In this document: positions 28,000 through 41,460 of the stretch, in pieces
Layout of the letters: every line of letters begins with the position of its first letter
How positions within the stretch are numbered: position 1 is the stretch's first letter
NCBI RefSeq assembly: GCF_000797465.1
Contig: NZ_JSWG01000009.1
Location: 62,001 to 126,000, forward strand
DNA: 64,000 nucleotides
DNA from: Psychroserpens jangbogonensis
GTDB lineage: Bacteria > Bacteroidota > Bacteroidia > Flavobacteriales > Flavobacteriaceae
Direction: 5' to 3'
Position numbers and translations under genes: made by a program
Notes under the pieces: model-generated
What the model saw: only the letters and a program-made list of their open reading frames with translations
Database searches by the model: none
Told to the model about the DNA's origin: nothing

Positions 28000-28032
28000 A
28001 AAACCTTCAAATTAAATTTGAAGGTTTTTTTA
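28000..28032 (+). terminator. rho-independent terminator after propeller copy 1
   Basis: Long stem formed by AACCTTCAAA and TTTGAAGGTT around a short AT loop, continuing into seven T residues; it separates copy 1 from copy 2. Confidence 0.85.
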
Positions 28033-28071
28033 TGTTTTTTTTATAAACTACATACAAAAATCTCAATTATT

Positions 28072-30549
28072 ATGAAAAAAATTACTCTATTAGCATTTCT
28101 TGTAATGTCTTATTGTTCAGTAGCTCAGGTCTTAAATGAATCAGCTAACTGGCCAAACAATAACTGGGCAATTACAGGTTCATATGACGCTAATCCAGTT
28201 ATCTTTACTGACAACCCAACGGATAGTTCATCTAATTTTTCATTTGATGATGATGAAGCTGGTGGAGCTTCAGTAAATAATATCGCTGCAGAATCGAATA
28301 CCATTGATTTAACTGCCGCTCATAATGCTGGAGAAACTTCGGTTACTGTAGTTAGCACATTTGTCTTTAATATTTATGAAGATGAAGACTTAAAGCTTCA
28401 GTATTGGGATAATGACGCTGCTATCTGGCAAGATTTTGGTCTTGAATTAGAACAGACTAATAATGCGCCTAATGTAAATTTTTGTAATGGAACTGCTGAG
28501 CAATTAAATCAAACATTAGATATAGCGGCATTTACAGCATCACAATTAACTAACTTTAAATATCGCATCTTATATGACGATAATGGTTCTTTCGGTTGGG
28601 GGTTTTGTTTTGATTCTCCTACAATACATTCTTTAACTCCTCCTGCTTGTCCAAATATTAGCGACTTATCTGTGACTTTTGTTACTTTAGATGGGGCTAA
28701 TGTCTTTTGGGAAACTGGAGACGTAGAGCCTTCATGGGAAATAGCTGTTCAAGCTCCAGGTACAGGAATTCCTGCTGGATCTGGAACATCAACAACTTCA
28801 AATAGTCCACATGTTTTAAGTGGATTAAATTCAAACACTTCATATGAAATTTATGTTAGAGGTTTTTGTGGAGGAACAGATTTCAGTAATTGGATTGGAC
28901 CAGTGAACTTTACAACCCTAATTCCAGCTAGAGTTAATTATACTCTGCAAGCTATGGATATAACTGGTTACGACCTGACTGTTGTGGATATGAATGGTGA
29001 CAACCTTGATGATATTGTTTCTGCATCTAATAGTAATGTTAATATTCATTACCAATTAAACTCAGGAGGATTCAACGAAGTAGATCTTCCTACGCCAAGT
29101 GCTGATTTTTTACCTGGCTGGAGTATGGCTGCTGCCGATTTTGATAAAAATGGTTATACCGATTTATTATATGGTTCTGGTAGTGGAGTTACTTTTATGA
29201 AAGCTAATAATACTGGAACAGGATTTACAGAAATCTCTGGTCCTGAATACGTGTTTTCACAACGCTCAAACTTTGTTGACATAAATAATGATGGTCACTT
29301 AGATGCTTTTGTATGTCATGATGTTGCTCCTAATGTATATTACATAAATGATGGGTCAGGGAATTTAACCTTCTATCAAGGTGCACAATACGATGATGGT
29401 TGTGATGATGCGCCAACCTCTGTAGATGATACTGGAGCTGTAGGTGGTTTAGGAAATTACTGTTCTGGAGGTAATTATGGGTCTATATGGATAGATTATG
29501 ATAATGATAGAGATATGGATATGTTTATCGCTAAATGTGGAGGAGAGACTGCTAGAAGAACTAATCAAATGTTAACCAATAATGGTGATGGTAGTTTTAC
29601 TGAAAATGCAAACGCTCTAGGTCTTGCTGATCCAATGCAAACATGGTCGTCGTCTTGGGCTGATTATGATAACGATGGTGATATGGATCTTTTTGTAGGC
29701 GCTAGTTCAGGTTCACACAAACTTATGCGTAACAATAGTAATGGTACCTTCACAGATGTAACATCTGGTGCTGGCGTAAGTGGTGCTCCTAATGGTCATG
29801 AAAGTGTTAGTTATGACATCGATAATGATGGCTATTTAGACATTTTATGTAATGGTACAATTATGTACGGAAAAGGTGATCTTACTTTCGAAGATGCAGA
29901 TAGTAATCAAATCGATTACAAAAATGGTTCTTTAGGTGATTTAAACAATGACGGATTTATTGATACTTATTATAATGGTAATATTTATTGGAATCTTACT
30001 ACCAGTAACAATTGGATTAAAATAAACACTATTGGTACTGCAAGTAATATTGATGGTATTGGTGCACGAGTTGAAATCTACACAGATAGCGGAGTTCAAA
30101 TTAGAGATGTACGAAGTGGTGAAGGTTTTGAATATATGAGTTCTTTAAATACTCACTTTGGTATTGGAAGCGACACAAGTGTATCTCATATTGTTGTATA
30201 CTGGCCAAATTCTGATTGTGAAATGTATTTAAACCCAGGTATCAATCAAGCATTCAATGCTGTTGAAGGTGCGGGTGATTCTTGTGATACTTTAGGGGTT
30301 AATGATGATGAACTTGCGCCTGATTTCATGTTGTCACCAAACCCAACTAAAAATGTTTTAAATATTACAACTGGACTGCAATTAGAAAATGCATTCTATA
30401 ATATTTATGATATGAGTGGTAGACGTGTAATGACAAATAATTTAAATAATTCTAAAACAATTGATGTGTCCCAATTAACAGCTGGGAATTATATCATTAG
30501 TATTGTCTCTGAAAATACTATTAGAAATCAAAAATTTATTAAGCAATAG
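28072..30549 (+). CDS. secreted FN3-FG-GAP-ASPIC propeller protein with T9SS tail (copy 2)
   Basis: 825 residues from ATG 28072 (MKKITLLAFLVMSYCSVAQ signal peptide); a frame extension to 28018 starts inside the terminator and was not used. Domains in order: an N-terminal jelly-roll-like domain (20-190), a fibronectin type III domain (about 195-285, WEIAVQAPGTGIPAGSG .. SYEIYVRGFCGG), seven DxDxDG calcium loops (290-640), ASPIC/UnbV module (650-725) and Por tail (755-825). It carries a 21-residue insertion absent from copy 3 (nt 29383-29445) that adds a Cys, with a second new Cys just after (NYCSGG). No -7 box recognised upstream. Confidence 0.9.
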   Translation: MKKITLLAFLVMSYCSVAQVLNESANWPNNNWAITGSYDANPVIFTDNPTDSSSNFSFDDDEAGGASVNNIAAESNTIDLTAAHNAGETSVTVVSTFVFNIYEDEDLKLQYWDNDAAIWQDFGLELEQTNNAPNVNFCNGTAEQLNQTLDIAAFTASQLTNFKYRILYDDNGSFGWGFCFDSPTIHSLTPPACPNISDLSVTFVTLDGANVFWETGDVEPSWEIAVQAPGTGIPAGSGTSTTSNSPHVLSGLNSNTSYEIYVRGFCGGTDFSNWIGPVNFTTLIPARVNYTLQAMDITGYDLTVVDMNGDNLDDIVSASNSNVNIHYQLNSGGFNEVDLPTPSADFLPGWSMAAADFDKNGYTDLLYGSGSGVTFMKANNTGTGFTEISGPEYVFSQRSNFVDINNDGHLDAFVCHDVAPNVYYINDGSGNLTFYQGAQYDDGCDDAPTSVDDTGAVGGLGNYCSGGNYGSIWIDYDNDRDMDMFIAKCGGETARRTNQMLTNNGDGSFTENANALGLADPMQTWSSSWADYDNDGDMDLFVGASSGSHKLMRNNSNGTFTDVTSGAGVSGAPNGHESVSYDIDNDGYLDILCNGTIMYGKGDLTFEDADSNQIDYKNGSLGDLNNDGFIDTYYNGNIYWNLTTSNNWIKINTIGTASNIDGIGARVEIYTDSGVQIRDVRSGEGFEYMSSLNTHFGIGSDTSVSHIVVYWPNSDCEMYLNPGINQAFNAVEGAGDSCDTLGVNDDELAPDFMLSPNPTKNVLNITTGLQLENAFYNIYDMSGRRVMTNNLNNSKTIDVSQLTAGNYIISIVSENTIRNQKFIKQ

Positions 30550-30570
30550 AGCTTTAAGATTTTTACTACA

Positions 30571-30606
30571 AAAAAGCCACTACATTGAATGTAGTGGCTT
30601 TTTTTT
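30571..30606 (+). terminator. rho-independent terminator after propeller copy 2
   Basis: Stem AAAAAGCCACTACAT (30571-30585) / ATGTAGTGGCTTTTT (30589-30603) with a TGA loop and T-run. It is homologous to the terminator after copy 3, with base-pair-preserving change. Confidence 0.9.
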
Positions 30607-30608
30607 AT

Positions 30609-30616
30609 TACTTTTG
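30609..30616 (+). promoter_or_regulatory. -7 box (TACTTTTG) of propeller copy 3 promoter
   Basis: Exact TAnnTTTG match directly after the terminator of copy 2 and 29 nt before the copy 3 ATG, implying that copy 3 is transcribed independently. Confidence 0.5.
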
Positions 30617-30645
30617 CAAATTACTTACCTAATATTTAAATTATT

Positions 30646-33066
30646 ATGAAAAAAATTACATTATTAGCATTTCTTGTGATGTCTTATTGTTCAGTTGCAC
30701 AGGTTTTAAACGAATCAGCTAACTGGCCAAACAATAACTGGACAATTACGGGCTCATATGACACTAATCCAGATATCTTTACTGACAATCCAACAGATAG
30801 TTCATCTAACTTTTCATTTGATGAAGATGAAGCTGGACCAAATTCAGTAAATAACATAGCTGCCGAATCTAATACTATTGATTTAACTGCGGCTCATAAT
30901 GCTGGAGAAACGTGGGTTACTGTAGCAAGCTCTTATGTTTTTAATATTTTCGCAAATGAAGAACTAAACATACAATATTGGGATAATGATGCTGGAAACT
31001 GGCAAGATTTTGGTGATGAATTAACACAGACCAATAACGCGCCAAATGTGAATTTTTGTAATGGAACTCCAGAACAAGTAAATCAAACAATAAGTATTAC
31101 TTCTTTTACAGCATCTCAATTAGCCAACTTCAAATACCGCATCTCATATGATGATAACGGATCTTATGGTTGGGGATTTTGTTTTGAATCTCCTACAATA
31201 TATTCAGAAACACCTCCAGTCTGTCCAAATATTAATAATCTTATAGTTAATTTTATTTCTTCAGATGGTGCTAATGTTATCTGGGAAGCTGGAGACGCAG
31301 AAACTTCATGGGAAATAGCTGTTCAAGCTCCCGGAACTGGAATTCCTGCTGGATCTGGAACATCAACAACTACAAATAATCCACATGTTTTAAGTGGGTT
31401 AAACCAAAACACAACATACGAAGTTTATGTTAGAGGTTTTTGTGGAGGAACAGATTTCAGCAATTGGGTTGGACCAGTAAACTTTACAACACTAATTCCA
31501 TCTAGAGTTAATTTTTCTCTCCAAGCTATGCCAATTGGTGGTAGTTACGACTTGACAGTTGTGGATATGAATGGTGACAATCTAGATGATATTGTTTCCG
31601 TTTCTAATACCAATGTTAATATTCATTACCAATTAAGCACTGGTGGTTTCAACGCAGTTGATCTACCAACTCCAAATGCTGACTTTATGCCTAGTTGGAG
31701 TATGGCTGCTGCAGATTTTGATGAAAATGGTTATACTGATTTATTATACGGAAATGGTAGTGGAGTTACATTTATGAAAGCTAATAATACTGGTACAGGG
31801 TTTACAGAAATCTCTAGCCCTGAATATGTATTTTCACAACGTTCAAACTTTGCTGATATAAACCAAGATGGTAATTTGGATGCTTTCGTTTGTCATGATG
31901 TTGCTCCTAACGTTTATTATATAAATGATGGAAATGGAAACCTTGCGTTTAATCAAGGAGGTTTAGGCGACTATTCTTCAGGAGGTAATTATGGGTCTAT
32001 ATGGATAGATTATGATAATGATAGAGATTTAGATATGTTTATTGCTAAATGTGGTGGAGAGACTGCTAGAAGAACTAATCAAATGTTAACCAATAATGGC
32101 GATGGTACTTATACAGAAAACGCTAATGCTTTAGGTCTTGCTGATCCAATGCAAACATGGTCGTCGTCTTGGGCTGATTATGATAACGATGGTGATATGG
32201 ATGTTTTTGTTGGTGCGAGTTCTGGCACACACAAACTTATGCGTAACAATGGTGATAGTACTTTCACGGACGTTACGTCTGGAGCTGGTGTAAGTGGTGC
32301 TCCTAATGGTCATGAAAATGTTAGTTATGATATTGATAATGATGGATACTTAGATATTTTATGTAATGGTACAATTATGTACGGAAAAGGTGATCTTACT
32401 TTCGAAGATGCAGATAACACTCAAATCAATTACAAAAATGGATCTTTAGGTGATTTAAATAATGACGGATTTATTGATGCTTATTATAATGGGAATATTT
32501 ATTGGAATCTTACTACCAGTAACAATTGGATTAAAATAAATACCGTTGGTACTGCAAGTAATGTTGATGGTATTGGTGCGCGTGTTGAAATCTACACAGA
32601 TAGTGGAGTTCAAATTAGAGATGTACGCAGTGGAGAAGGATTTGAATACATGAGTACTTTAAATACTCACTTTGGTATTGGAAGTGACACAAGTGTCAAT
32701 CATGTTATTGTATACTGGCCAAATTCTCCATGTGAAGTGTTTTTAAACCCCGACATTAATCAAGCATTTAATGCTGTTGAAGGTTCAGGAGATTCTTCCT
32801 GTGATGCACTTGGAGTTGATGATGAAGAACTTGCTTCAGATTTCATTTTATCACCAAATCCAACTAAAAATGTTTTAAATATTACTACTGGATTGCAGTT
32901 AGAAAATGCATTCTATAATATTTATGATATGAGTGGTAGACGTGTAATGACAAACTCTCTTAGTAATTCTAAGACAATTGATGTGTCTCAATTAACTGCT
33001 GGAAACTACATTGTAAGTATTGTCTCTGAAAATACTATTAGAAATCAAAAATTTATTAAGCAATAA
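30646..33066 (+). CDS. secreted FN3-FG-GAP-ASPIC propeller protein with T9SS tail (copy 3)
   Basis: 806 residues, near-identical in domain plan to copy 2: signal peptide MKKITLLAFLVMSYCSVAQ (same residues), jelly-roll domain, fibronectin III (about 195-285), seven calcium loops (DMNGDNLDD to DLNNDGFID), ASPIC/UnbV module and Por tail ending IRNQKFIKQ as in copy 2. Synonymous and some non-synonymous differences along the whole length show this is an established duplication, not an assembly echo. The duplication unit includes the terminator. Role unknown; calcium-stabilised surface adhesion or binding is plausible from the fold. Confidence 0.9.
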   Translation: MKKITLLAFLVMSYCSVAQVLNESANWPNNNWTITGSYDTNPDIFTDNPTDSSSNFSFDEDEAGPNSVNNIAAESNTIDLTAAHNAGETWVTVASSYVFNIFANEELNIQYWDNDAGNWQDFGDELTQTNNAPNVNFCNGTPEQVNQTISITSFTASQLANFKYRISYDDNGSYGWGFCFESPTIYSETPPVCPNINNLIVNFISSDGANVIWEAGDAETSWEIAVQAPGTGIPAGSGTSTTTNNPHVLSGLNQNTTYEVYVRGFCGGTDFSNWVGPVNFTTLIPSRVNFSLQAMPIGGSYDLTVVDMNGDNLDDIVSVSNTNVNIHYQLSTGGFNAVDLPTPNADFMPSWSMAAADFDENGYTDLLYGNGSGVTFMKANNTGTGFTEISSPEYVFSQRSNFADINQDGNLDAFVCHDVAPNVYYINDGNGNLAFNQGGLGDYSSGGNYGSIWIDYDNDRDLDMFIAKCGGETARRTNQMLTNNGDGTYTENANALGLADPMQTWSSSWADYDNDGDMDVFVGASSGTHKLMRNNGDSTFTDVTSGAGVSGAPNGHENVSYDIDNDGYLDILCNGTIMYGKGDLTFEDADNTQINYKNGSLGDLNNDGFIDAYYNGNIYWNLTTSNNWIKINTVGTASNVDGIGARVEIYTDSGVQIRDVRSGEGFEYMSTLNTHFGIGSDTSVNHVIVYWPNSPCEVFLNPDINQAFNAVEGSGDSSCDALGVDDEELASDFILSPNPTKNVLNITTGLQLENAFYNIYDMSGRRVMTNSLSNSKTIDVSQLTAGNYIVSIVSENTIRNQKFIKQ

Positions 33067-33137: not shown

Positions 33138-34049
33138 ATGCTTCAAGTCAAAGACCTCACTTTTAGTTACAAAAAAACTAAGATTTTAAATGATCTAAAC
33201 TTCTCTGTAAATCTAGGCGAAAATATCTCGATAATTGGTGAAAGCGGCTCAGGAAAAACGACACTTCTCAAACTTCTTTATGGTGAATTTGACATAAATC
33301 ATGGTACTATATTTTGGAAACAACAACAAATTTTAGGTCCAAAATATAATCTTGTGATTGGTTATGACTTTATAAAGTACGTAGCCCAAGAATTTGATTT
33401 AATGCCATATATAAGTGTCGAGGAAAATATTGGTAAGTTTCTCTCAAATTTCTTTCCAGAAGAAAAACAAATACGAACACAAGAATTGCTAGAAGTTGTT
33501 GAGCTTACTAAGTTTGCACATGTAAAAGTGAAAACCCTAAGTGGTGGACAAAAACAACGTGTTGCACTTGCTCGTGCATTAGCAAAACAGCCTGAAATTC
33601 TTTTGTTAGATGAACCCTTTAGTCACATTGACAATTTTAAAAAACAGTCGCTTAGACGTCGTGTTTTCAAATATTTAAAAGAAAAGAAAATAACGTGTAT
33701 TGTTGCTACTCACGATAAAAATGATGTCTTAGGATTTGCGGATCGTGTGATTCTTTTAAACAATGCAAAAATAGAAGCAAACGATTCTCCAGAACATTTG
33801 TTTAAACATCCAAAAACGCCTCTTGTTGCATCCTTTTTTGACGAGTTTAATGTCATTAAAAATGAAATCGTTTATGCGCATCAACTCAATGTTGTTGAAC
33901 AATCAAATATTAAAGTAACGGTGAATAAAAACTATTTTAAAGGAACCTATTATTTAATTGAATCTAGCTTTGAAAACGAAACTGTATTTTTTGAATACAC
34001 TGAAAAATTGACCGAAGGAAGTATCGTTTATTTAGACATTAACAAATAG
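33138..34049 (+). CDS. orphan ABC transporter ATP-binding protein
   Basis: 303 residues. Walker A GESGSGKTTLLK, Q-loop YVAQEFDLMPY, signature LSGGQKQRVALARAL, Walker B ILLLDEPFS and the H-loop His in IVATHDK are all intact, so it should be an active ATPase. An extra C-terminal domain (about 215-303) resembles the regulatory or TOBE-like tail of importer ATPases. No permease or binding protein gene is adjacent, so its partner must be elsewhere or it is a non-transport ABC protein. It converges with the PPTase gene with an 11-nt overlap. Confidence 0.88.
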   Translation: MLQVKDLTFSYKKTKILNDLNFSVNLGENISIIGESGSGKTTLLKLLYGEFDINHGTIFWKQQQILGPKYNLVIGYDFIKYVAQEFDLMPYISVEENIGKFLSNFFPEEKQIRTQELLEVVELTKFAHVKVKTLSGGQKQRVALARALAKQPEILLLDEPFSHIDNFKKQSLRRRVFKYLKEKKITCIVATHDKNDVLGFADRVILLNNAKIEANDSPEHLFKHPKTPLVASFFDEFNVIKNEIVYAHQLNVVEQSNIKVTVNKNYFKGTYYLIESSFENETVFFEYTEKLTEGSIVYLDINK

Positions 34050-34605
34050 CATAAGCGCCATATTCACCATGATGCGATATGGACAACGCTTCAAAAATTT
34101 GTTGATTATTTAAAAACAAGTTTGGAACTCCTAATGCTGTCTTTTTAAGCTTCAGTGAATTTAAATTACGCTTTTTATCATTAGAAACTTGTTTTATTAA
34201 TCGCGTTCTTACCGCTTCACTTTGATTAGCTTCACTTAATTTAAAAAGCTCAATTTTCGGGAGCTTTCCTTTATTATTACTAGCTGTGCTGTGCACATAT
34301 TCTGAAGTAATTATTGATCTTGAATAATATATCTTATCATCAATATTAACAACACTTTCATTGTTTAAACCCAATTGACATTGAATTCGTTTGGGATTGA
34401 AAAAGCTGTGTTCAAATTCCCTTACGTAAGCTTTATACGCTGCTTCTTTTATGCTCCAAAGCAACCAAACCGTTTGATCTTTATTTTCTGAAGACAAAAT
34501 AATTGATTGTTCTTTTTGGGTAAATGTTTTGTCTAAAAATCGAGGTCGTTTCCAATTAGAATCTTTTGCTGCTTGCTTAAAATCAACAATGTCATTGCCT
34601 ATCAT
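34039..34605 (-). CDS. 4'-phosphopantetheinyl transferase (type III PKS cluster)
   Basis: 188 residues. MIGNDIVDFKQA carries the first Mg-binding Asp, and WSIKEAAYKAY is the catalytic (W)-x-x-KE-A-x-K signature of the Sfp/AcpS superfamily. It would transfer 4'-phosphopantetheine from CoA onto the ACP encoded directly upstream; the 4-nt overlap with that gene argues for a dedicated pair. It is the last gene of the eight-gene minus-strand operon. Confidence 0.88.
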   Translation of the reverse strand: MIGNDIVDFKQAAKDSNWKRPRFLDKTFTQKEQSIILSSENKDQTVWLLWSIKEAAYKAYVREFEHSFFNPKRIQCQLGLNNESVVNIDDKIYYSRSIITSEYVHSTASNNKGKLPKIELFKLSEANQSEAVRTRLIKQVSNDKKRNLNSLKLKKTALGVPNLFLNNQQIFEALSISHHGEYGAYAIC

Positions 34606-34856
34606 TTTTGAGCCAATTTTTCATTAATAATATCCATAGCGCTTTTTACGGAAATCATTTTTTCCATATCATCATTTTCTATTCTAATATCAAATTCATC
34701 TTCAACATCCAGTATAACGTCAACTAGATTTGCTGAATTAATTTTTAAATCACTAATAAAATCAGTGTTTTCAGACAAGTTAGCAAAAGCAGTTTCATCT
34801 TGAATATAGGGTTGAACAATTGTTTTTAGTTTGGCAATAAGTTCGTCTTTGGTCAT
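34602..34856 (-). CDS. acyl carrier protein, atypical DSL motif
   Basis: 84 residues from ATG 34856 (MTKDELIAKL); an upstream start would overlap the ketosynthase stop. It has the ACP helix pattern with the phosphopantetheine Ser at Ser41 in LKINSANLVDVILDVEDEFD, so the usual DSL is replaced by NSA. The housekeeping ACP gene is not in this window. It sits 4 nt after the ketosynthase gene and overlaps the PPTase gene by 4 nt; it is inferred to carry the acyl chain for the cluster. Confidence 0.85.
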   Translation of the reverse strand: MTKDELIAKLKTIVQPYIQDETAFANLSENTDFISDLKINSANLVDVILDVEDEFDIRIENDDMEKMISVKSAMDIINEKLAQK

Positions 34857-34860
34857 GGGC

Positions 34861-36132
34861 TTAATTATATCTTTTAAAGATAATACAACCATTTACATCA
34901 CCAAAACCAAAACTTGCTTTTGCAGCAATATTCAATTCAGTATGCAATACCTGCTTTACAATTTTATCTTCAGAAATTAATACGGGAATTTCTTCGTGTA
35001 CATCTTCACAATTGATGTTTGGAAATACAAATTGTTCTTTCAACTGAAGAACAGTGGCAACGCTTTCAATACTACCTGCAGCAGCCAAACAATGACCAAC
35101 CATCGATTTTAATGAATTAATATAAGGGAAATTTTCGCCTTTTCTACTCAAGGCTTTTGTCCAATTCTCTATTTCAAGACCATCTTTTGAAGTCGCTGTT
35201 AAATGGCCATTAATTGTGTCTATTTGATTTGCTGAAATATTAGAATTTGAAAGGGCTTCCTTAATGCAACGTTGCACTGCCACAGCATTTGGAGCTGTCA
35301 TGGTTCCACCTTGTCGTTGTCCTCCAGAATTAATATTTCCACCTAAAACCTCAGCATGAATAGTTGCATTTCGATCTAAAGCACTCTCCAAAGACTCTAA
35401 GACTAAAGCTCCTGCTCCTGCTCCTGGAACAAAACCTGATGCGCTTTTGCTCATTGGTCTTGAACCTTGTTCTGGTGAATCATTATGTTTGTAAGTCATA
35501 ACTCTCATGGCATCAAATCCGCCCCAAATATAAGGCCCATCATCACTACAGCTTCCAACTAGCATACGTTTTGCTTGACCATTTTTTATGCGTTCATAAC
35601 CCATTAAAATGGCTTCAGTTCCCGTTGTACATGCTGATGAATTTGTAGTAACTTGATTTCCCAAACCTAAAATCCCACCTAAAAAAGCACTTATTCCGCT
35701 AGTCATAGTTTGTACAACAACAGTACTTCCTAAACGTTTTACTTGATTATCGTCTAATTTGTAAATAGCCTCTCTGAACTTTTCAACTCCAGATGTACCA
35801 GTCCCGAAAACCGTTCCGCTATCAAAATCTAATTCACTATCAGCATCTACTGAAAAACCAGCATCTTTCCAGGCATCAATTCCGGCAATACATCCATATA
35901 AAATTCCAGAACTATTAAAACCTCTTAGTTGCAAAGGCGTTAGATATTCAAGTTTTTTTTCTTCAGAAATTTCTGGAATTCCACCAATACAACACGAAAA
36001 ATTTAAGTCAGCCAATTGTTGATGAAAGGTAATACCAGACTCTCCTTTTTTAATCGCTTTTGAAAACGCATCGATTCCTACTCCGTTTGGTGCTACTACT
36101 CCTAGACCTGTAATGACTACTCTGTTTTTCAT
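34861..36132 (-). CDS. beta-ketoacyl-ACP synthase (FabF-like, cluster ketosynthase)
   Basis: 423 residues from ATG 36132 (MKNRVVITGLGVVAP); the longer frame starts inside the dehydratase gene. Catalytic Cys168 lies in NSSACTTGTEAI, His310 in INGHLTATSKDG (FabF NAHGTST-type) and His347 in KSMVGHCLAAAG, so the Cys-His-His triad is complete. It should condense malonyl-ACP onto a growing acyl chain. It overlaps the dehydratase gene by 4 nt (ATGA) and is 4 nt from the ACP gene. Confidence 0.88.
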   Translation of the reverse strand: MKNRVVITGLGVVAPNGVGIDAFSKAIKKGESGITFHQQLADLNFSCCIGGIPEISEEKKLEYLTPLQLRGFNSSGILYGCIAGIDAWKDAGFSVDADSELDFDSGTVFGTGTSGVEKFREAIYKLDDNQVKRLGSTVVVQTMTSGISAFLGGILGLGNQVTTNSSACTTGTEAILMGYERIKNGQAKRMLVGSCSDDGPYIWGGFDAMRVMTYKHNDSPEQGSRPMSKSASGFVPGAGAGALVLESLESALDRNATIHAEVLGGNINSGGQRQGGTMTAPNAVAVQRCIKEALSNSNISANQIDTINGHLTATSKDGLEIENWTKALSRKGENFPYINSLKSMVGHCLAAAGSIESVATVLQLKEQFVFPNINCEDVHEEIPVLISEDKIVKQVLHTELNIAAKASFGFGDVNGCIIFKRYN

Positions 36133-36566
36133 GCTTTTATCATTCCTGAAATCGTTCCTCGACACACTAACTCTTCTTTTTCGTTATATAATTTGACCTT
36201 ACATTTAAGCTTGTTAAAACGGAAGACTTCTTTCTCTGAAATCACAGTCACTTTCTCTCCTGGAAGAACTGGTAAAAAGAAATCAACTTGACTTGAGGTC
36301 AAAGCAATTTGCGGATGGCTATTTTCTGAAACCTCATCTTTCATTATATAAATTCCTAAACACACCACGCCTATTTGTGCCATGCATTCCGTTAGAATTA
36401 CTCCTGGTGTAATAGGGTTGTCTTTAAAATGACCTTCATAAAAATACGCGTCTTTTTTAAACGAGTAATACCCTTTTATACCGTCGGAAGATATTGAAGT
36501 CAATTCGTCAACGAACAAAAATGGTTCTTGATATGGTAATAATGATATGATTTGGTTTGATGTCAT
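36129..36566 (-). CDS. FabZ-like beta-hydroxyacyl-ACP dehydratase (hotdog fold)
   Basis: 145 residues. The hotdog signature EGHFKDNPITPGVILTECMAQ supplies the active-site His46 and Glu60 of the FabA/FabZ type. It would dehydrate a beta-hydroxyacyl chain to the trans-2-enoyl form on the cluster ACP. The starting ATG is 3 nt downstream of the SDR stop. No separate beta-ketoacyl reductase gene is in the operon. Confidence 0.85.
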   Translation of the reverse strand: MTSNQIISLLPYQEPFLFVDELTSISSDGIKGYYSFKKDAYFYEGHFKDNPITPGVILTECMAQIGVVCLGIYIMKDEVSENSHPQIALTSSQVDFFLPVLPGEKVTVISEKEVFRFNKLKCKVKLYNEKEELVCRGTISGMIKA

Positions 36567-36569
36567 TTG

Positions 36570-37367
36570 TTAACTTATATGTTCACCTCCATCTACAGGA
36601 ATGACACAACCATTTATCCAAGATGCTTCATCTTTAGATAAAAGATAAACAGAATTTGCTATGTCTTCAGGTTGTGTTAATCTTTTGAATGGATTACGCT
36701 TCAAACTGTGTTCTTTTATTTTATCGCTTCCAGGAATCATTCGTAAAGATGCGGTGTCTGTAACTCCAGCTTGAATGCAGTTTGCTCTAATTCCAAAAGG
36801 CGCAAACTCTAAAGCAATATTTCTTGTTATAGCCTCTAAGGTAACTTTTGCAGCAGAAACAGCTGCATAATTTTTCCAAGCCTTCGTATTCCCTTCACTC
36901 GTAAAACTTAAGATTCTAGCATCTTCTGTAAACAATTGAGCTTCAAAAATGGCTTTTGTCCAATCGTATAAACTAATTGCCATTGCATTAATAGTAAGAC
37001 TGAAATCATCATTTTTTAATGTTGGTGTTTCTTCAGAAATCATTGGTTTTAGATTTCCTTTTGCAACGCTATGAACGAGTGTTCTTATTTTTCCTTCTGG
37101 TCCAAATAAGTCTATCAAATCTGATAAAATTTGATCACGTTTTTCAGATTTAAAAGCATCTACATTAAACGCTTTGAATTGTACATTTTCAGCTTTAATT
37201 TCATCAAATTCAGCATTAATCTCATCTTCCTGAATTCTAGAGTTTCTGTGAATGACACAAATATTCATTCCATGTTTTGCAAGTTTTTTAGCCGTTGCTA
37301 AACCCAATCCGCTAGAACCACCCAAAATGAGTGCCCAATAGTTTTTATCTTGAAATTCTTTTACCAT
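36570..37367 (-). CDS. SDR oxidoreductase with Y-x6-K active site (enoyl-ACP reductase-like)
   Basis: 265 residues. Nucleotide-binding LILGGSSGLGLATAKKL; the catalytic pair is Tyr167 and Lys174 in NYAAVSAAK, a Y-x6-K spacing that is the mark of FabI/FabL enoyl reductases and not of classical Y-x3-K SDRs. RANCIQAGVTDT and the C-terminal IPVDGGEH are typical of the family. It is inferred to reduce the enoyl intermediate made by the adjacent dehydratase. It overlaps the type III PKS gene by 7 nt. Confidence 0.82.
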   Translation of the reverse strand: MVKEFQDKNYWALILGGSSGLGLATAKKLAKHGMNICVIHRNSRIQEDEINAEFDEIKAENVQFKAFNVDAFKSEKRDQILSDLIDLFGPEGKIRTLVHSVAKGNLKPMISEETPTLKNDDFSLTINAMAISLYDWTKAIFEAQLFTEDARILSFTSEGNTKAWKNYAAVSAAKVTLEAITRNIALEFAPFGIRANCIQAGVTDTASLRMIPGSDKIKEHSLKRNPFKRLTQPEDIANSVYLLSKDEASWINGCVIPVDGGEHIS

Positions 37368-38413
37368 TCTAATAGTATTCGTTGTGCTGAAAACCCTGGC
37401 CCAAAGCTTAGCATTAACCCTCTATCTCCTTTCGGTAATTGCTTATCCATAAAGCGTTCTAAAACATAAAGCACAGTTGCGCTACTCATGTTTCCGTACA
37501 GTTTAAGAACGTCTTTAGTGTCATCAATATTCTTTCCAAGCGAACCAAATAAATCTTCAACGGTTTGCACGATTTTCTTTCCTCCTGGATGAAAAATAAG
37601 ATGGTCTACATCTTCAATTGTGATGTTATTTCGTTCTAAAAAGGGGTGCACAATCATGGGGAAATGTTCTGAAATCGTCTCAGGAACAGCCTTATCTAAA
37701 ATCATTTGCAAACCTGTATTCACCAATTTAAAACCCATCATTGTTTCAGCGTCATAAAAATGATACATGGCTTCATCAACTATTTTGGGACCTTCTTCAT
37801 TGTCATAGGATGATAAAATAACACTCGATGCTCCATCACCAAAAATCGCCGCACTAACGATATTAACCATAGAAAAATCATCTAGTTGAAAGGTTGCTGT
37901 TGGAGATTCTACTGCAATAACTGCGGCACGTTTATTTGGATTTGCTTTTAAAAAATTCTTGGCATATATAATTCCTGAAACTCCAGCCGCACAACCCATT
38001 TCGGTAACAGGAAGTCGTACTATATCCTGTTTCATTTTAAGGCTATTGATTAAATAAGCATCCATTGACGGAATCATAATTCCGGTGCAACTAACCGTAA
38101 TAATATAATCAATATCTGTTGGCTTTAGGCTGGCTTTGTCTAAGGCTTTAACCAAAGATTGTTCAGCTAACTTTACAACTTCACGCGAATAGATGTTATT
38201 TTTCTCTTCAAAAGAAGTGTTTAAAAACACCTCTTCAGCATCCATAATTGAATAGCGTCTATCGACTCCTGCGTTTTCAAACAGCTTAATTACTTTTCGT
38301 TGAAACCGCTCTTCTTGTCCAGACATCCATATATTTAAATACGGGATAATATCCTTAGTTTCTCTAGTATATTTTGGTAACTGTTTAGCTACTGATGTGA
38401 TTTTTACACTCAT
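37361..38413 (-). CDS. type III polyketide synthase (chalcone/stilbene synthase family)
   Basis: 350 residues from ATG 38413 (MSVKITSVAK); the extra upstream residues would overlap the methyltransferase gene by more than its stop. Catalytic triad is visible: Cys141 (TEMGCAAGVSG), His275 (HLIFHPGGKK) and Asn308 (YGNMSSATVLY). Such enzymes extend an acyl starter with malonyl-CoA and cyclise to resorcinols or pyrones; bacterial members often use long acyl starters. It overlaps the methyltransferase stop by 4 nt (ATGA) and is the core gene of the cluster. Confidence 0.93.
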   Translation of the reverse strand: MSVKITSVAKQLPKYTRETKDIIPYLNIWMSGQEERFQRKVIKLFENAGVDRRYSIMDAEEVFLNTSFEEKNNIYSREVVKLAEQSLVKALDKASLKPTDIDYIITVSCTGIMIPSMDAYLINSLKMKQDIVRLPVTEMGCAAGVSGIIYAKNFLKANPNKRAAVIAVESPTATFQLDDFSMVNIVSAAIFGDGASSVILSSYDNEEGPKIVDEAMYHFYDAETMMGFKLVNTGLQMILDKAVPETISEHFPMIVHPFLERNNITIEDVDHLIFHPGGKKIVQTVEDLFGSLGKNIDDTKDVLKLYGNMSSATVLYVLERFMDKQLPKGDRGLMLSFGPGFSAQRILLEW

Positions 38414-39129
38414 ATGTTTTTTTGTTTCAAAATCCATTGAAAACGAAAAGCCCATTTCCACTGTATGTGATAATTTGCTTCTAACTTTTCTGATATAGAT
38501 TTCAACTCTTTTCTTTTAAATCCTCGTAATACTGATGTTAATCCGTCTTCAATAATGGTTTTGTTTGTAATAGTTGTACATAACAACTTAAACAAATAGT
38601 AAGCAAGTTTGTGTCTATGTAAATCGTTTACAACGATCCCTAATTTTGATTTTTCCAAGACTGGTTTTAAAAACGACACCAATTCATCATTCTTAAAGTG
38701 ATGCAAAAATAAGGTTGTTAATACCAAATCGTAGTTTAGTGATTTAAACTCTTCTGAAAAAATATCAATCGCTTTAAATTCTATATTATCATAAGCTTCT
38801 GACAATGTATTGGCATAATCAACTGTATGCTGATTGGCATCTATTCCAATTAAGTGAAATTGATAGCCATTCTTCTTTCCAAATAATGAGACTTCTCGCA
38901 AAATATCACCTCCTCCACAACCTAAATCAACAATAGTTATGGCTTCGTTTTTTGAATGATTTTTGAGCGTTTTTTTAAGTCCGTTAACTGTGACTATATT
39001 TCCGCCCAACCATTGATTTATTTTGGCCAGCTTATCAAGGGCATCATGAAGTATCGGACCATTATAGTCCAAATCATCCATAATTTCTTCAGCTTCACTT
39101 CTGTATTTCGTACTCACTAACAAACTCAT
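38410..39129 (-). CDS. SAM-dependent methyltransferase (type III PKS cluster)
   Basis: 239 residues. Class I SAM fold with motif I IVDLGCGGGDILREV and a downstream motif QFHLIGIDANQHTVDYAN. By position between the PKS and the FAD enzyme it is inferred to be a C- or O-methyltransferase acting on the polyketide. In Streptomyces griseus srsA-srsB-srsC has the same three enzyme types (type III PKS, methyltransferase, flavoprotein hydroxylase). It overlaps both neighbours by 4 nt. Confidence 0.8.
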   Translation of the reverse strand: MSLLVSTKYRSEAEEIMDDLDYNGPILHDALDKLAKINQWLGGNIVTVNGLKKTLKNHSKNEAITIVDLGCGGGDILREVSLFGKKNGYQFHLIGIDANQHTVDYANTLSEAYDNIEFKAIDIFSEEFKSLNYDLVLTTLFLHHFKNDELVSFLKPVLEKSKLGIVVNDLHRHKLAYYLFKLLCTTITNKTIIEDGLTSVLRGFKRKELKSISEKLEANYHIQWKWAFRFQWILKQKNI

Positions 39130-40277
39130 TCCGCTTTCATTACTTTACCGTGTGTTCTTTTTATGATATAAGGTAAAATACCCGGAAACCATTTTAGACC
39201 TTGCATCAATACTTCTGATAATTTGGGTTGATTAAATAAATCTGCTATAATATGACCTGTTTTTAAGCGCAATTTAAACGCTGTATTCCATGCTCTAAGG
39301 TACTTCTTTTCTAATGTTTCTCTATCAAGGTTTTCCGAATTAAAATAATTAATAATTAATGTTGAAGCTATTTGAGCACTTCTTATTGCCATGCTCATCC
39401 CATTTCCACTAAGCGGATGAATCAAAGCTGCGGTATCACCACACATAATGATGTGGTTTTCTATAGGCTTTTTACTATCAAATGAAATTTGACTTATAGT
39501 TAGAGGTTCTTTAAATACTGGACTCGAATTAGTAAAGATATCTTTAAGAAATGTATTTTTATATAGGACTTTCTGCTGAAACTCGTCAATGTCCTTATAG
39601 GTTTTAAAGGAATTGAAATTGGTGATATAACATAAATTAATACTGTCATTTTCTACTTTAGAAACACCACAATAACCACCTTCAAAATTATGTAGCGCAA
39701 CTACATCTTCAGGGAAACTTCCTTTAACGTGAGTTTTCACTGCTAAATATGGGGACTTGCTTTTTATGAATTGACGTTTAAGTTTGATATCGAGATTAGA
39801 CCGTTTTCCATATGCGCCAATTACAATTTTAGCTTCAAACTGTTTATCGCTTTTTGTTACAACTGAAAACACATCATTTGAAAATTGAATATCTTCTACT
39901 GAATCCTGCAGAATTTCTGCTCCAGATTGAAGACCTCGTTTTGCTAAAGCGTTATCTAAACAAAACCGGCTAATCCCAAAACCACCTAATGGTAATGCTG
40001 TAGAAATAAGTTTGCTTTTCGTAGTAGATAATTGAAATTTATCAATTTTTTTAGCGCCTAATTTAAAGACGTCAATGTCTAAAAAATCAAGGTAAGGTAA
40101 GACTTCATTAGAAATATATTCACCACAAACCTTGTGTTTTGGAAAGCTGTTTTTTTCAATCACTAAAACACTCAAATTTGCTTTGGATAAATGAATTGCG
40201 CTAGATAAACCTGCTAATCCACCACCAACAACAATGACATCAAAAGTTCTATTTGCTGTGCTCAATTTCTTTTTCAA
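39126..40277 (-). CDS. FAD-dependent oxidoreductase (geranylgeranyl reductase/aromatic hydroxylase-like)
   Basis: 383 residues. VIVVGGGLAGLSSAIHLSKAN is the FAD-binding GxGxxG, GKRSN.. the middle region, and CGDTAALIHPLSGNGMSMA the second FAD motif (GD..P..GNG). These are found in flavoprotein monooxygenases and geranylgeranyl-type reductases; sequence does not decide between ring hydroxylation and lipid reduction. It is the first gene of the operon and overlaps the methyltransferase gene by 4 nt. Confidence 0.82.
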   Translation of the reverse strand: MKKKLSTANRTFDVIVVGGGLAGLSSAIHLSKANLSVLVIEKNSFPKHKVCGEYISNEVLPYLDFLDIDVFKLGAKKIDKFQLSTTKSKLISTALPLGGFGISRFCLDNALAKRGLQSGAEILQDSVEDIQFSNDVFSVVTKSDKQFEAKIVIGAYGKRSNLDIKLKRQFIKSKSPYLAVKTHVKGSFPEDVVALHNFEGGYCGVSKVENDSINLCYITNFNSFKTYKDIDEFQQKVLYKNTFLKDIFTNSSPVFKEPLTISQISFDSKKPIENHIIMCGDTAALIHPLSGNGMSMAIRSAQIASTLIINYFNSENLDRETLEKKYLRAWNTAFKLRLKTGHIIADLFNQPKLSEVLMQGLKWFPGILPYIIKRTHGKVMKAE

Positions 40278-40307: not shown

Positions 40308-40760
40308 TTAGATAACCTCAGTAATTTTAAACTCTTGGTCTCTAAATTTAATTTGATCGTCTTTTTGTTTACCCATGAGTAATGAAGCAATAGGAGTGTT
40401 TGCAGAAATCGCATAGAATGACTGATTCTCTGCTTTTATTTCACCAGCACTTAGAGCAATGAAATAGTTGGCTTGAGATGTAAAAATAACACTTCCTAGC
40501 GCGATGGTTTGTGATGATTTTGAGACATCAATTTTAGATAGCAATTGGTTAAGTTTCTGAATTTCGGCTAATTGATGTCCTGCTTTTTCTCGTTCTATTT
40601 GTAACATCGCTCGTCCTGTCTCATGTTTATCTCCTGCAGAACTTTTTGTTTCAGATGTTAGAGATTCTTGAATCTCATCAATGGTTTTCTGGATAGTTTG
40701 TAGACGTGTATCCACGAATGCTTGACATTGAATGTATAATTCTTGCTTTAAGTTATTCAT
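40308..40760 (-). CDS. GreA/GreB C-terminal-domain-like protein
   Basis: About 150 residues from ATG 40760; an ATG at 40769 (MII..) is an alternative, both overlap mtgA. The N-terminal helical region (QTIQKTIDEIQESLTSETKS) is followed by a Gre-type C-terminal fold ending ANTPIASLLMGKQKDDQIKF, matching the SPLGxALLGKxxGD pattern. Gre factors bind RNA polymerase, but the catalytic N-terminal coiled coil is short here, so a role in transcript cleavage is doubtful. Not part of the PKS operon by function. Confidence 0.65.
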   Translation of the reverse strand: MNNLKQELYIQCQAFVDTRLQTIQKTIDEIQESLTSETKSSAGDKHETGRAMLQIEREKAGHQLAEIQKLNQLLSKIDVSKSSQTIALGSVIFTSQANYFIALSAGEIKAENQSFYAISANTPIASLLMGKQKDDQIKFRDQEFKITEVI

Positions 40761-41460
40761 AATTATCATCTCGCTTAGGATAATTTAATGGACCAAAATA
40801 ACGCATTTGCTTGACAACCCACGATTTTCTTCCTTCTATATATGATGTTGCTGGATTAGCTTTATATCTTAAAGGGTTCGGTAAAATTGAAGCAATTGCT
40901 GCTGCTTCATATTTTGATAGTTTGGATGCTGATTTTTTAAACCAATATTGAGAAGCTGCTTCCACTCCATAAATTCCTGGACCCATTTCTATACTATTGA
41001 GATAGACTTCCATAATGCGTTCTTTGCTCCAAATGAGCTCAATTAAGAACGTGAAATAGGTTTCTAATCCTTTTCGTAACCAGCTTCGGTTTGACCAAAG
41101 AAATACGTTTTTTGCTGTCTGTTGAGAAATTGTACTCGCTCCTTTTATTTTTTTTCCTTTTTTATTATTCTCATATGCTTTTTCGATAGCTTTAATATCA
41201 AAGCCATGATGTTTCAAAAAGTTCTGGTCTTCACTACAAATAACTGCTAATTGCACATTGGTTGACATGTCTTCAATAGGAATCCAATTATGTTCCCATC
41301 CTTTTTTATTGGTTTCTGTCTTCTGTATATTTCTTATTACCATTAGAGGTGTAATTGGCACAGGAGCCCATTTAAAAACAACCACAATGACCACAGAAAA
41401 CACGAACAGCCCAAACAGTGTTTTGAAGATAAACCTAAAGAAACGTTTTATGAATTTCAT
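40753..41460 (-). CDS. mtgA: monofunctional peptidoglycan glycosyltransferase
   Basis: 235 residues. Residues 13-30 are one membrane helix; the GT51 signature ICSEDQNFLKHHGFD contains catalytic Glu77, followed by GASTISQQTAKNVFLW and the LIWSKERIMEVYLNSIEMG segment. It polymerises lipid II glycan strands without a transpeptidase domain. It follows the FAD-oxidase gene by 9 nt and overlaps the Gre-like gene, so it is inside a run of minus-strand genes. Confidence 0.92.
   Translation of the reverse strand: MKFIKRFFRFIFKTLFGLFVFSVVIVVVFKWAPVPITPLMVIRNIQKTETNKKGWEHNWIPIEDMSTNVQLAVICSEDQNFLKHHGFDIKAIEKAYENNKKGKKIKGASTISQQTAKNVFLWSNRSWLRKGLETYFTFLIELIWSKERIMEVYLNSIEMGPGIYGVEAASQYWFKKSASKLSKYEAAAIASILPNPLRYKANPATSYIEGRKSWVVKQMRYFGPLNYPKRDDNYE

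Follow-up and report, generated by a model that had tools for sequence, protein, structure and literature searches.

Why should a flavobacterium keep a set of dissociated fatty-acid enzymes in one operon with a type III polyketide synthase (PKS)? The operon in question occupies positions 34039..40277 on the minus strand of the window, a 64,000-nucleotide stretch of the Psychroserpens jangbogonensis genome, and, read from its genes alone, it probably directs the synthesis of a modified ring-headed lipid, with a small dissociated fatty-acid module priming the type III PKS. The ORF list of the window gives eight ORFs, all with intact catalytic residues (Table 1), and Pfam places seven of the eight proteins above its cut-offs, as FAD oxidoreductase, class I methyltransferase, chalcone/stilbene synthase, SDR, FabA/FabZ-like hotdog protein, ketoacyl synthase and ACPS-type 4'-phosphopantetheinyl transferase (PPTase); the acyl carrier protein (ACP) scores just under (20.7 against 20.8 bits) and matches NCBIfam ACP models, likewise below cut-off. 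An earlier note on this DNA had listed these eight genes, their span and families, which our searches bear out, and had most of them overlapping by 4-7 nt; with the best starts, five of the seven junctions do overlap (by 4, 4, 7, 4 and 4 nt), while at the remaining two the genes stand 3 and 4 nt apart. Promoter-like sites show no excess over shuffled sequences (27 against 28.7); terminator-like sites number 10 against 3.4, and the three on the coding strand all lie within genes.

Table 1. Genes of the operon, in order of transcription, with the basis of each assignment
Product	Position	Strand	Basis
FAD-dependent oxidoreductase (geranylgeranyl-reductase / flavin monooxygenase / halogenase superfamily)	39126..40277	-	Pfam DAO and others
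Class I SAM-dependent methyltransferase	38410..39129	-	Pfam Methyltransf_31/25
Type III PKS, Cys141-His275-Asn308	37361..38413	-	Pfam PF00195/PF02797 over cut-off
Putative FabL-type enoyl-ACP reductase (SDR), Tyr167-x6-Lys174	36570..37367	-	PDB profile match, Foldseek, Tyr-Lys spacing
FabZ-like 3-hydroxyacyl-ACP dehydratase, His46 and Glu60	36129..36566	-	Pfam FabA-like, 52.6 bits
FabF/FabB-related ketosynthase, Cys168-His310-His347	34861..36132	-	Pfam
Acyl carrier protein, Ser41 in INSA motif	34602..34856	-	NCBIfam ACP models, below cut-off
4'-Phosphopantetheinyl transferase	34039..34605	-	Pfam ACPS, 55.1 bits

The PKS belongs to the type III class by both of its Pfam families and by its Cys-His-Asn triad; the residue numbers given earlier are right for the ATG at 38413, and the triad is invariant in all 24 PKSs aligned (this alignment, like those of the SDR, ketosynthase, dehydratase and ACP, takes a chosen subset of the fetched loci). 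Among the best 60 of 105 matches in a PDB search, its nearest solved relatives are Pks11, the putative PKS 1u0m and CylI, while its top NCBIfam model is DpgA (168 bits against a cut-off of 425). In a PKS tree whose deeper joins are open and from which HidC was left out, the flavobacterial sequences form a clade (99/100) apart from that of six PKSs encoded in plasmid loci of other phyla beside a methyltransferase and a flavoprotein (100/100), the combination called here the trio. We know of no characterised enzyme among the rows of the tree, save that the one from Rhizobium etli may be the pyrone synthase RePKS, and given this and the separation from the trio PKSs, ring chemistry cannot be carried across. 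Pks11 and PKS18 make pyrones. Both share with the operon PKS a Trp three residues ahead of the catalytic His, and no ring type is concluded from it. The residues described as determining ring type in ArsB (Trp281) and ArsC (Gly284) (PMC6274091) were also considered and set aside, the position being unmappable; ArsC is not among the matches listed from two PDB searches (the best 60 of 105 in one, all 46 in the other).

The catalytic residues of the ketosynthase (KS) are invariant in 20 of 20 sequences aligned, those of the dehydratase (DH) in 19 of 19 and Ser41 of the ACP in 22 of 22, where the motif reads INSA or INSS instead of the usual DSL. The KS is about 30% identical to FabB and FabF, as against 27% and 25% to two of the three aryl-polyene-like KSs of the host genome, and it has no significant match to the third. 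The SDR has the YX6K motif recognised earlier (Tyr and Lys invariant in 21 of 21), to which we add that it looks like a FabL-type enoyl-ACP reductase (ER): FabL is its top PDB profile match (145.8 bits; runner-up 99.7) and its top Foldseek match (3oid, TMt 0.92), and its Tyr-Lys spacing aligns with that of E. coli FabI, unlike that of FabG. The NCBIfam FabL model gives it 148.5 bits, under a curated cut-off of 328, and by that standard its sequence marks it as a relative of FabL, not an orthologue. A FabL-like SDR leaves the operon without a ketoreductase of its own, and the set becomes KS-DH-ER-ACP; Pfam and the SDR comparisons found neither a ketoreductase nor a malonyl-CoA:ACP transacylase among the operon genes. 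Of the 80 loci inspected, nine lack the SDR without replacement, so that saturation may vary among species or the SDR may have a different role, and a PPTase is recognised in only 26. The earlier note spoke of a full elongation set built around an ACP and equipped with an enzyme to activate it; we would keep the elongation set but not the word full, and would credit the activating enzyme to the operon in this window though not in general.

The distribution of the genes ties the two halves together. Roughly one in three of the family's genomes sampled (104 of 299) has a type III PKS, and 101 have the operon-type KS, every one within the PKS carriers; nowhere in the 299 genomes does the KS (E <= 1e-120) occur without a PKS. 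As for PKS carriers without an operon KS, one (G072) has a PKS of another lineage, only 31% identical, another (G293) has its KS match cut by the contig end (locus L056), and the third (G138), a nearly complete draft, keeps FAD-MT-PKS-SDR (MT, methyltransferase) with no KS found. The gene-neighbourhood survey for which the earlier note had called recovers the order FAD-MT-PKS-(SDR)-DH-KS-ACP-(PPTase) in 74 of 80 loci. In the other six the run breaks off at the SDR, the DH or the KS, and two of these six are on contigs shorter than 7 kb; three (G190, G144, G276) come from genomes that have DH-KS-ACP at a different place, so that both halves are kept, and for a fourth (G066) the remaining genes are on another contig. 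In the split genomes the SDR remains with the PKS half. Other families, too, have the cassette as a unit, in some cases lacking the SDR, and in nine carriers labelled as outside the family its flanking genes are unlike those of the window. The eight genes are a conserved, mobile operon, and the near-perfect co-occurrence, with the retention of both halves in three split genomes and the presence of the cassette in other families, upholds the earlier proposal of a link between a dissociated type II elongation set and the type III PKS. Pairwise-distance correlations among seven operon genes (r 0.28-0.78, 65 of 80 loci) fit co-inheritance but, having no housekeeping control, are given no weight.

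Homologues of the methyltransferase and of the FAD protein are present in all 80 loci. The methyltransferase matches NCBIfam PRK06202 (129 bits, under a cut-off of 243) and Pfam Methyltransf_31/25/11 and others, and no ICMT family; it is 27-33% identical to the methyltransferases of six plasmid trio loci in other phyla (E 2e-36 to 1e-22). The FAD protein is 21-28% identical to its six counterparts there (E <=4e-16 in five; 0.004 for Deinococcus) and scores 114.6 bits against the NCBIfam GG-red-SF model, below its cut-off of 158.8. Its AF2 model (pLDDT 87.4) has as top Foldseek matches the halogenases ChlB4 and PltA and 3nix, with 3-hydroxybenzoate 6-hydroxylase further down; because the 50 folds listed, at 13-21% identity, include halogenases and hydroxylases as well as a GG-reductase-like protein, the reaction of the flavoprotein cannot be fixed from them.

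These features have counterparts in several known systems. In Streptomyces griseus srsABC, to judge from the description of a homologous operon in Marisediminicola, a PKS, a methyltransferase and a monooxygenase share one operon (PMC6669644). The earlier note had found here the same enzyme types, a statement not supported as worded, the likeness being loose: the SrsB homologue is given as a methyltransferase of the isoprenylcysteine carboxyl type, in a description that mentions no dedicated synthase (PMC6669644), whereas the operon has a class I enzyme. The operon PKS, moreover, branches apart from the trio-type PKSs of other phyla. Judged by sequence, the class I methyltransferase, flavoprotein and PKS trio of other phyla is the closer tailoring match, its PKS being nonetheless a separate lineage. 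A methyltransferase, an oxidoreductase and a type III PKS are described together for hidABC (hierridins) and for a planctomycete operon, both making alkylresorcinols that are afterwards methylated (PMC8086630, PMC10896814); the comparison is one of descriptions, these mention no KS/DH/ER/ACP module, and the six plasmid loci, to which the operon's tailoring proteins are homologous and its PKS is not closely allied, served as proxies for the Hid proteins.

For the elongation module the parallels lie elsewhere. ArsA of Azotobacter vinelandii is a large type I multidomain synthase, and CylI of the cylindrocyclophane pathway takes its substrate from a line of modular type I PKSs that includes an activating ligase. 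ArsA, which has an ACP domain, is a dedicated fatty-acid synthase described as feeding the type III PKSs ArsB and ArsC by direct transfer from ACP to cysteine (PMC6274091), and CylI, also a type III PKS, is described as able to use ACP-bound substrates (PMC8086630). The operon resembles ars in that its acyl-chain enzymes are dedicated, co-encoded and co-inherited with the PKS (80 loci, 299 genomes), and differs from it in having separate KS, DH, SDR and ACP ORFs, a FabL-type reductase, no ketoreductase, and a methyltransferase and flavoprotein of its own; from the cylindrocyclophane pathway it differs in its dissociated fatty-acid set. Flavobacterial aryl polyene and flexirubin clusters likewise use dissociated KS, DH and ACP enzymes, and an Aequorivita cluster has been called 'T3pks-arylpolyene' (PMC6139392). 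Membership of that group, considered because of this label, is rejected on the KS identities given above and on the separate cluster of this kind in the host genome. A paper on koreenceine concerns an unrelated Pseudomonas type II PKS.

Outside the Bacteroidota, 10-15 kb was read at trio loci of Falsirhodobacter, Deinococcus, Psychrobacter, Roseomonas, Paracoccus and one Sphingobium, and showed no match to the KS or to the ACP. Three sphingomonad plasmids, however (Sphingobium yanoikuyae pKN1, Novosphingobium pentaromativorans pLA3 and that of Novosphingobium sp. RL4), do carry ACP and KS genes adjoining the PKS, methyltransferase and flavoprotein genes. Their KSs are different, being 24-25% identical to the operon KS, and that of Sphingobium is closer to FabF; neither a DH nor an SDR is annotated directly among the genes (two annotated records), and the PKSs, of which the tree includes two of the three, belong to a different clade. 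The sphingomonad arrangement suggests parallel recruitment. Across the plasmid records the best PKS match is 34%, with no KS match at 1e-60.

We propose a model in which the PPTase would activate the dedicated ACP, and the KS, FabZ-like DH and FabL-like ER, with the cell's ketoreductase and malonyl transacylase, would build or finish on it a specific acyl chain. The acyl-ACP, not an acyl-CoA, would then load Cys141 of the PKS directly, most likely as ArsA primes ArsB and ArsC; the PKS would add malonyl-CoA units and close them into a ring, either a phenolic one of the resorcinol type or an alpha-pyrone, and tailoring of the ring, or of the chain, would follow, the class I enzyme methylating it and the flavoprotein oxidising it. 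Besides the co-occurrence and conserved gene order, the carriers outside the family with their unlike flanks, the FabL-like SDR and the sphingomonad parallel, this is favoured by the absence of any acyl-CoA ligase or thioesterase from the operon in a Pfam scan of its genes, by the ACP-to-PKS transfers described for ArsA to ArsB/ArsC, GCS and SCO7671 (PMC6274091) and for CylI (PMC8086630), and by genes of a lipid-handling kind (MMPL exporter, YceI, lipocalin-like) that adjoin the operon in some relatives. Against it stand the missing ketoreductase and malonyl transacylase, the loss of the SDR in some loci, the separate lineage of the PKS, the draft in which no KS is found, and the absence of exporter and YceI neighbours from the window.

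The draft with no KS found (G138), and the retention of the SDR by the PKS half after a split, would also suit a PKS fed by housekeeping long-chain acyl-CoA or acyl-ACP, as proposed for HidC, with the KS, DH, SDR and ACP modifying the ring lipid or making a second chain joined to it; the trio loci without KS or ACP presumably draw on housekeeping chains. We consider this unlikely, although not negligible, since KS and PKS co-occur almost perfectly and neither an acyltransferase nor an enzyme that would form an ester turns up in the same Pfam scan. The flow might instead run in reverse, the PKS making an aromatic thioester from malonyl-CoA in the manner of DpgA, for transfer to the ACP and elongation by the KS, DH and ER into an aryl-headed fatty chain. 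The top NCBIfam model would agree with this, and aryl-primed KS systems seem to be present in the host genome (L250); yet the DpgA score is far below cut-off in a library that may contain few other type III PKS models, the Pfam scan shows neither an enoyl-CoA hydratase-like nor a thioester-transfer gene, the KS is less like the aryl-polyene-like KSs than like FabF and FabB, and an enoyl reductase is at odds with a polyene, all of which makes the reverse direction quite improbable. The KS, DH and ACP might also belong to an independent pathway with nothing but the operon in common with the PKS, as the physical separability of the modules in three genomes would allow, but both halves are retained there and the KS was not found without the PKS in the 299 genomes, and we regard such independence as very improbable indeed.

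Priming of the PKS by acyl-ACP, the reading we prefer, has a wider corollary, which we offer tentatively as possible rather than probable: a widespread class of flavobacterial envelope lipids may be made by dissociated synthases that hand acyl-ACP directly to a type III PKS, an architecture that would have arisen at least twice, once in Bacteroidota, as KS, FabZ-like DH, FabL-like ER and ACP, and once in sphingomonads, where the ACP goes with a different KS. The earlier note was right that related loci might be known from genome mining, inasmuch as the literature accessible to us has them only as uncharacterised "T3PKS" clusters. Among the open-licence PMC papers searched, we found none assigning a product to the operon. 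One survey, which took in 66 bacteria from Flavobacteriaceae and other groups, places T3PKS second in frequency among the cluster types of Flavobacteriaceae (9% of their clusters) and, in the text available to us, assigns it no product (PMC7440613). If most such labels denote this operon, one product, most likely a modified ring-headed lipid made by a fatty-acid machine and a ring-forming enzyme that are inherited together, would explain a large share of the polyketide capacity still uncharacterised in the family. Its small, separate proteins also offer a clean system for studying how a type III PKS takes up a chain from a carrier protein.

Domain scans agree with the earlier note on the gene content of 34039-40277, where eight minus-strand genes encode, in transcription order, an FAD oxidoreductase (FAD), a class I SAM methyltransferase (MT), a type III polyketide synthase (PKS), an SDR protein, a FabZ-like dehydratase (DH), a ketosynthase (KS), an ACP and a PPTase. 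The same note read most of these genes as overlapping by 4-7 nt, and five junctions do so. The next gene downstream encodes an ABC ATPase; it runs convergently, with an 11-nt overlap with the PPTase gene. A small protein with a weak, below cut-off match to the GreA/GreB C-terminal domain is encoded 30 nt upstream of the operon, whose transcript it could share. Elsewhere in the window, two adjoining tandem genes encode secreted-looking proteins of 843 and 806 aa that closely resemble each other and, by eye, have a C-terminal sorting-like end.

Locations of the features discussed; junctions are calculated from the best start codons
Feature	Location	Strand	Overlap or gap
FAD/MT junction	window	minus	overlap 4 nt
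MT/PKS junction	window	minus	overlap 4 nt
PKS/SDR junction	window	minus	overlap 7 nt
SDR-DH junction	window	minus	gap 3 nt
DH/KS junction	window	minus	overlap 4 nt
KS-ACP junction	window	minus	gap 4 nt
ACP/PPTase junction	window	minus	overlap 4 nt
GreA/GreB-like small protein	window 40308-40769		
Tandem secreted-looking proteins	window 28018-33066	plus	
Sphingomonad plasmid ACP-KS-PKS + MT/flavoprotein clusters	L259 3489-7808; L261 2713-7696; L263 2571-7681		
OmpA-family protein directly ahead of operon (example)	L099 4898-6076		
Small protein beside operon (example)	L049 12352-12819		
Aryl-polyene/flexirubin-like cluster	L250 (G000:C2:42000-61500)		

The PKS triad named in the earlier note, Cys141-His275-Asn308, is intact and invariant across all 24 sequences aligned, the relatives being 55-94% identical. 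Also invariant are KS Cys168-His310-His347 (20/20), DH His46/Glu60 (19/19) and ACP Ser41 (22/22), the last within an INSA or INSS motif that replaces DSL; each alignment is a chosen subset of the 80 loci surveyed below. The 'full ACP-based elongation set' first described stands as regards KS, DH and ACP, but there is no ketoreductase in it, the SDR looking like a FabL-type enoyl reductase. We base this assignment on active-site spacing and relative rank because overall identity to E. coli FabG (26%) and E. coli FabI (24%) is about equal and the NCBIfam FabL cut-off is not reached (148.5 versus 328 bits). In an alignment, Tyr167-x6-Lys174 coincides with the Tyr-Lys pair of E. coli FabI but misses that of FabG, where the Tyr lies four positions ahead of the Lys. 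Against the PDB, a profile of 21 SDRs matches B. subtilis FabL at 145.8 bits and the next entry at 99.7, while Foldseek with an AlphaFold2 model (mean pLDDT 91.6) places FabL (3oid) first, at TM 0.87/0.92 and 27% identity; FabI structures are high-ranking, yet a gluconate dehydrogenase stands at rank 3. If the SDR is an enoyl reductase, the operon is without a ketoreductase and would therefore borrow the cell's own.

We propose a mechanism in which KS, DH and enoyl reductase, working with the cell's own ketoreductase and malonyl transacylase, would generate an acyl-ACP that primes the PKS. A review (PMC6274091) describes such transfer from ACP to PKS between ArsA and ArsB/ArsC, and also for GCS and SCO7671, and direct transfer fits with there being no acyl-CoA ligase in the operon. 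Planctomycete type III PKSs yielded pentadecyl- and heptadecylresorcinols, and addition of one MT and FAD pair led to a single, probably C-, methylation (PMC10896814). The operon flavoprotein may catalyse ring hydroxylation, halogenation or double-bond reduction, which its predicted fold does not distinguish; the model (pLDDT 87.4) resembles ChlB4, PltA, Bmp2 and a Cytophaga flavoprotein, with 3-hydroxybenzoate 6-hydroxylase and a GG-reductase-like protein ranked lower, and identities are 13-21% among the 50 matches listed.

KS and PKS are co-inherited within the family. PKS is present in 104 of the 299 flavobacterial genomes sampled (84 of 236 genera), and the KS model matches 101 of the 299 at E <= 1e-120, all of them PKS-positive (Fisher p = 3e-77, a value inflated by shared ancestry and not readable as a probability). 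The three PKS-positive genomes without a KS match are G072, whose PKS is of another lineage (31% identical); G293, which is 76% complete and has a KS match running into a contig end (L056); and G138 (L040), a 99% complete draft that keeps FAD-MT-PKS-SDR and in which operon-type KS was not found at that threshold. In G190, G144 and G276 the operon breaks after SDR and DH-KS-ACP lies elsewhere in the same genome, and in G066 the missing part sits on another contig.

The gene-neighbourhood survey suggested in the earlier note was run on 80 of the 104 genomes (the 24 left out include G072, which was fetched later), and FAD, MT and PKS occur in all 80 loci, DH in 76, KS in 75, ACP in 74, SDR in 71 and PPTase in 26. 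The order FAD-MT-PKS-SDR-DH-KS-ACP is found in 43 loci, and with a recognised PPTase in 22; SDR is missing from nine otherwise in this order (five without PPTase, four with), and shortened operons end after SDR (four), DH (one) or KS (one). SDR and PPTase are optional members of the operon. Searched in full, the nine SDR-less genomes give a best match of 96.8 bits, against 409-462 bits for the orthologues of three genomes with SDR. The PPTase count comes from tblastn, which possibly missed divergent copies. A partly overlapping set comprises the best 80 of at least 567 relatives from named organisms, of which Psychroserpens and Lacinutrix match best; among the 74 tallied (six fall outside the tally) all eight genes occur in 47 and SDR alone is missing in 16. 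At one locus (L111, genome G150) PKS and FAD are each split into two ORFs, which may reflect a broken copy or a sequencing error.

Across a phylum-wide sample of 395 genomes the operon's PKS clade gives at least 639 bits and the next lineage 261. The cassette has nine carriers labelled as lying outside the family and appears mobile: three are genomes from other families in the class (L217-L219), one is the isolate Brumimicrobium mesophilum (L184, of the Crocinitomicaceae), and five are contigs of MAGs assigned to other groups (L164, L180, L189-L191), assignments that may reflect misbinning. Three (L184, L217, L218) are without SDR, and the flanks in all nine do not match those in the window. 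Near 17 PKSs that belong to other lineages (L220-L236, all from other families except L236, which comes from G072 within the family) there is no operon-type FAD, MT, KS or ACP homologue; immediately behind 13 of them comes a gene of 163-183 aa that by eye resembles one next to a plasmid PKS, the latter being annotated as isoprenylcysteine carboxyl methyltransferase.

The PKS-MT-FAD trio also exists in other phyla. The MT matches 32 plasmid records, and PKS, MT and FAD protein occur together in all nine regions read (the Deinococcus FAD by annotation). Three also carry ACP and KS, namely Sphingobium yanoikuyae pKN1, Novosphingobium pentaromativorans pLA3 and Novosphingobium sp. RL4; in the remaining six, no match to KS or ACP reached E <= 1e-5 within the stretch read. 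Like the operon, these sphingomonad clusters have ACP and KS adjoining PKS, MT and flavoprotein, but their KS seems, from sequence comparison, to be of different descent and the KS-ACP pair to have been recruited twice, since the window KS shares 24-25% identity with those of the sphingomonads, and the KS of the Sphingobium plasmid is 35% identical to E. coli FabF. In a 36-row PKS tree, whose deeper forks are poorly supported, six PKSs from such PKS-MT-FAD trios form one clade (100/100) and the flavobacterial sequences a separate one (99/100).

Same-strand neighbours within 300 bp, assigned to families by Pfam, were counted in the 80 surveyed loci and in a set of 100 (80 named loci plus L217-L236). 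An MMPL-family exporter lies behind the operon in 7/80 and 15/100 loci (ahead in one more), a YceI-like protein ahead in 8/80 and 28/100 (behind in three more), and an OmpA-family protein ahead in 48/80 and 1/100; of the 80 stretches surveyed, 48 encode a lipocalin-like protein. None of the four was found in the window at E <= 1e-5. Such lipid-binding and lipid-export neighbours fit an envelope lipid as the product, and shared ancestry of the neighbourhood explains them equally. In 13/80 and 5/100 loci the operon has a same-strand neighbour that encodes a small protein (about 150 aa), which by eye looks membrane-like and matches no Pfam family.

Loci of this kind are already known under the label T3PKS, and the published clusters may correspond to this operon. 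T3PKS makes up 9% of Flavobacteriaceae clusters (PMC7440613) and is described from Aequorivita, with 69% identity to a Zobellia PKS (PMC6139392), all nine Aquimarina genomes (PMC9323603), Leeuwenhoekiella, where it is similar to no known cluster (PMC9859067), Kordia (PMC7477175) and Bizionia (PMC12843772); the accessible portions of these six papers assign it no product. The present analysis adds the division into two modules, the assignment of the SDR as FabL-like and the joint inheritance of KS and PKS. The window's own genome also has a separate aryl-polyene/flexirubin-like cluster, with genes that we take to encode an ammonia lyase, FabG, an acyltransferase, dehydratases, three KS-like proteins, an ACP and an MMPL-like exporter.
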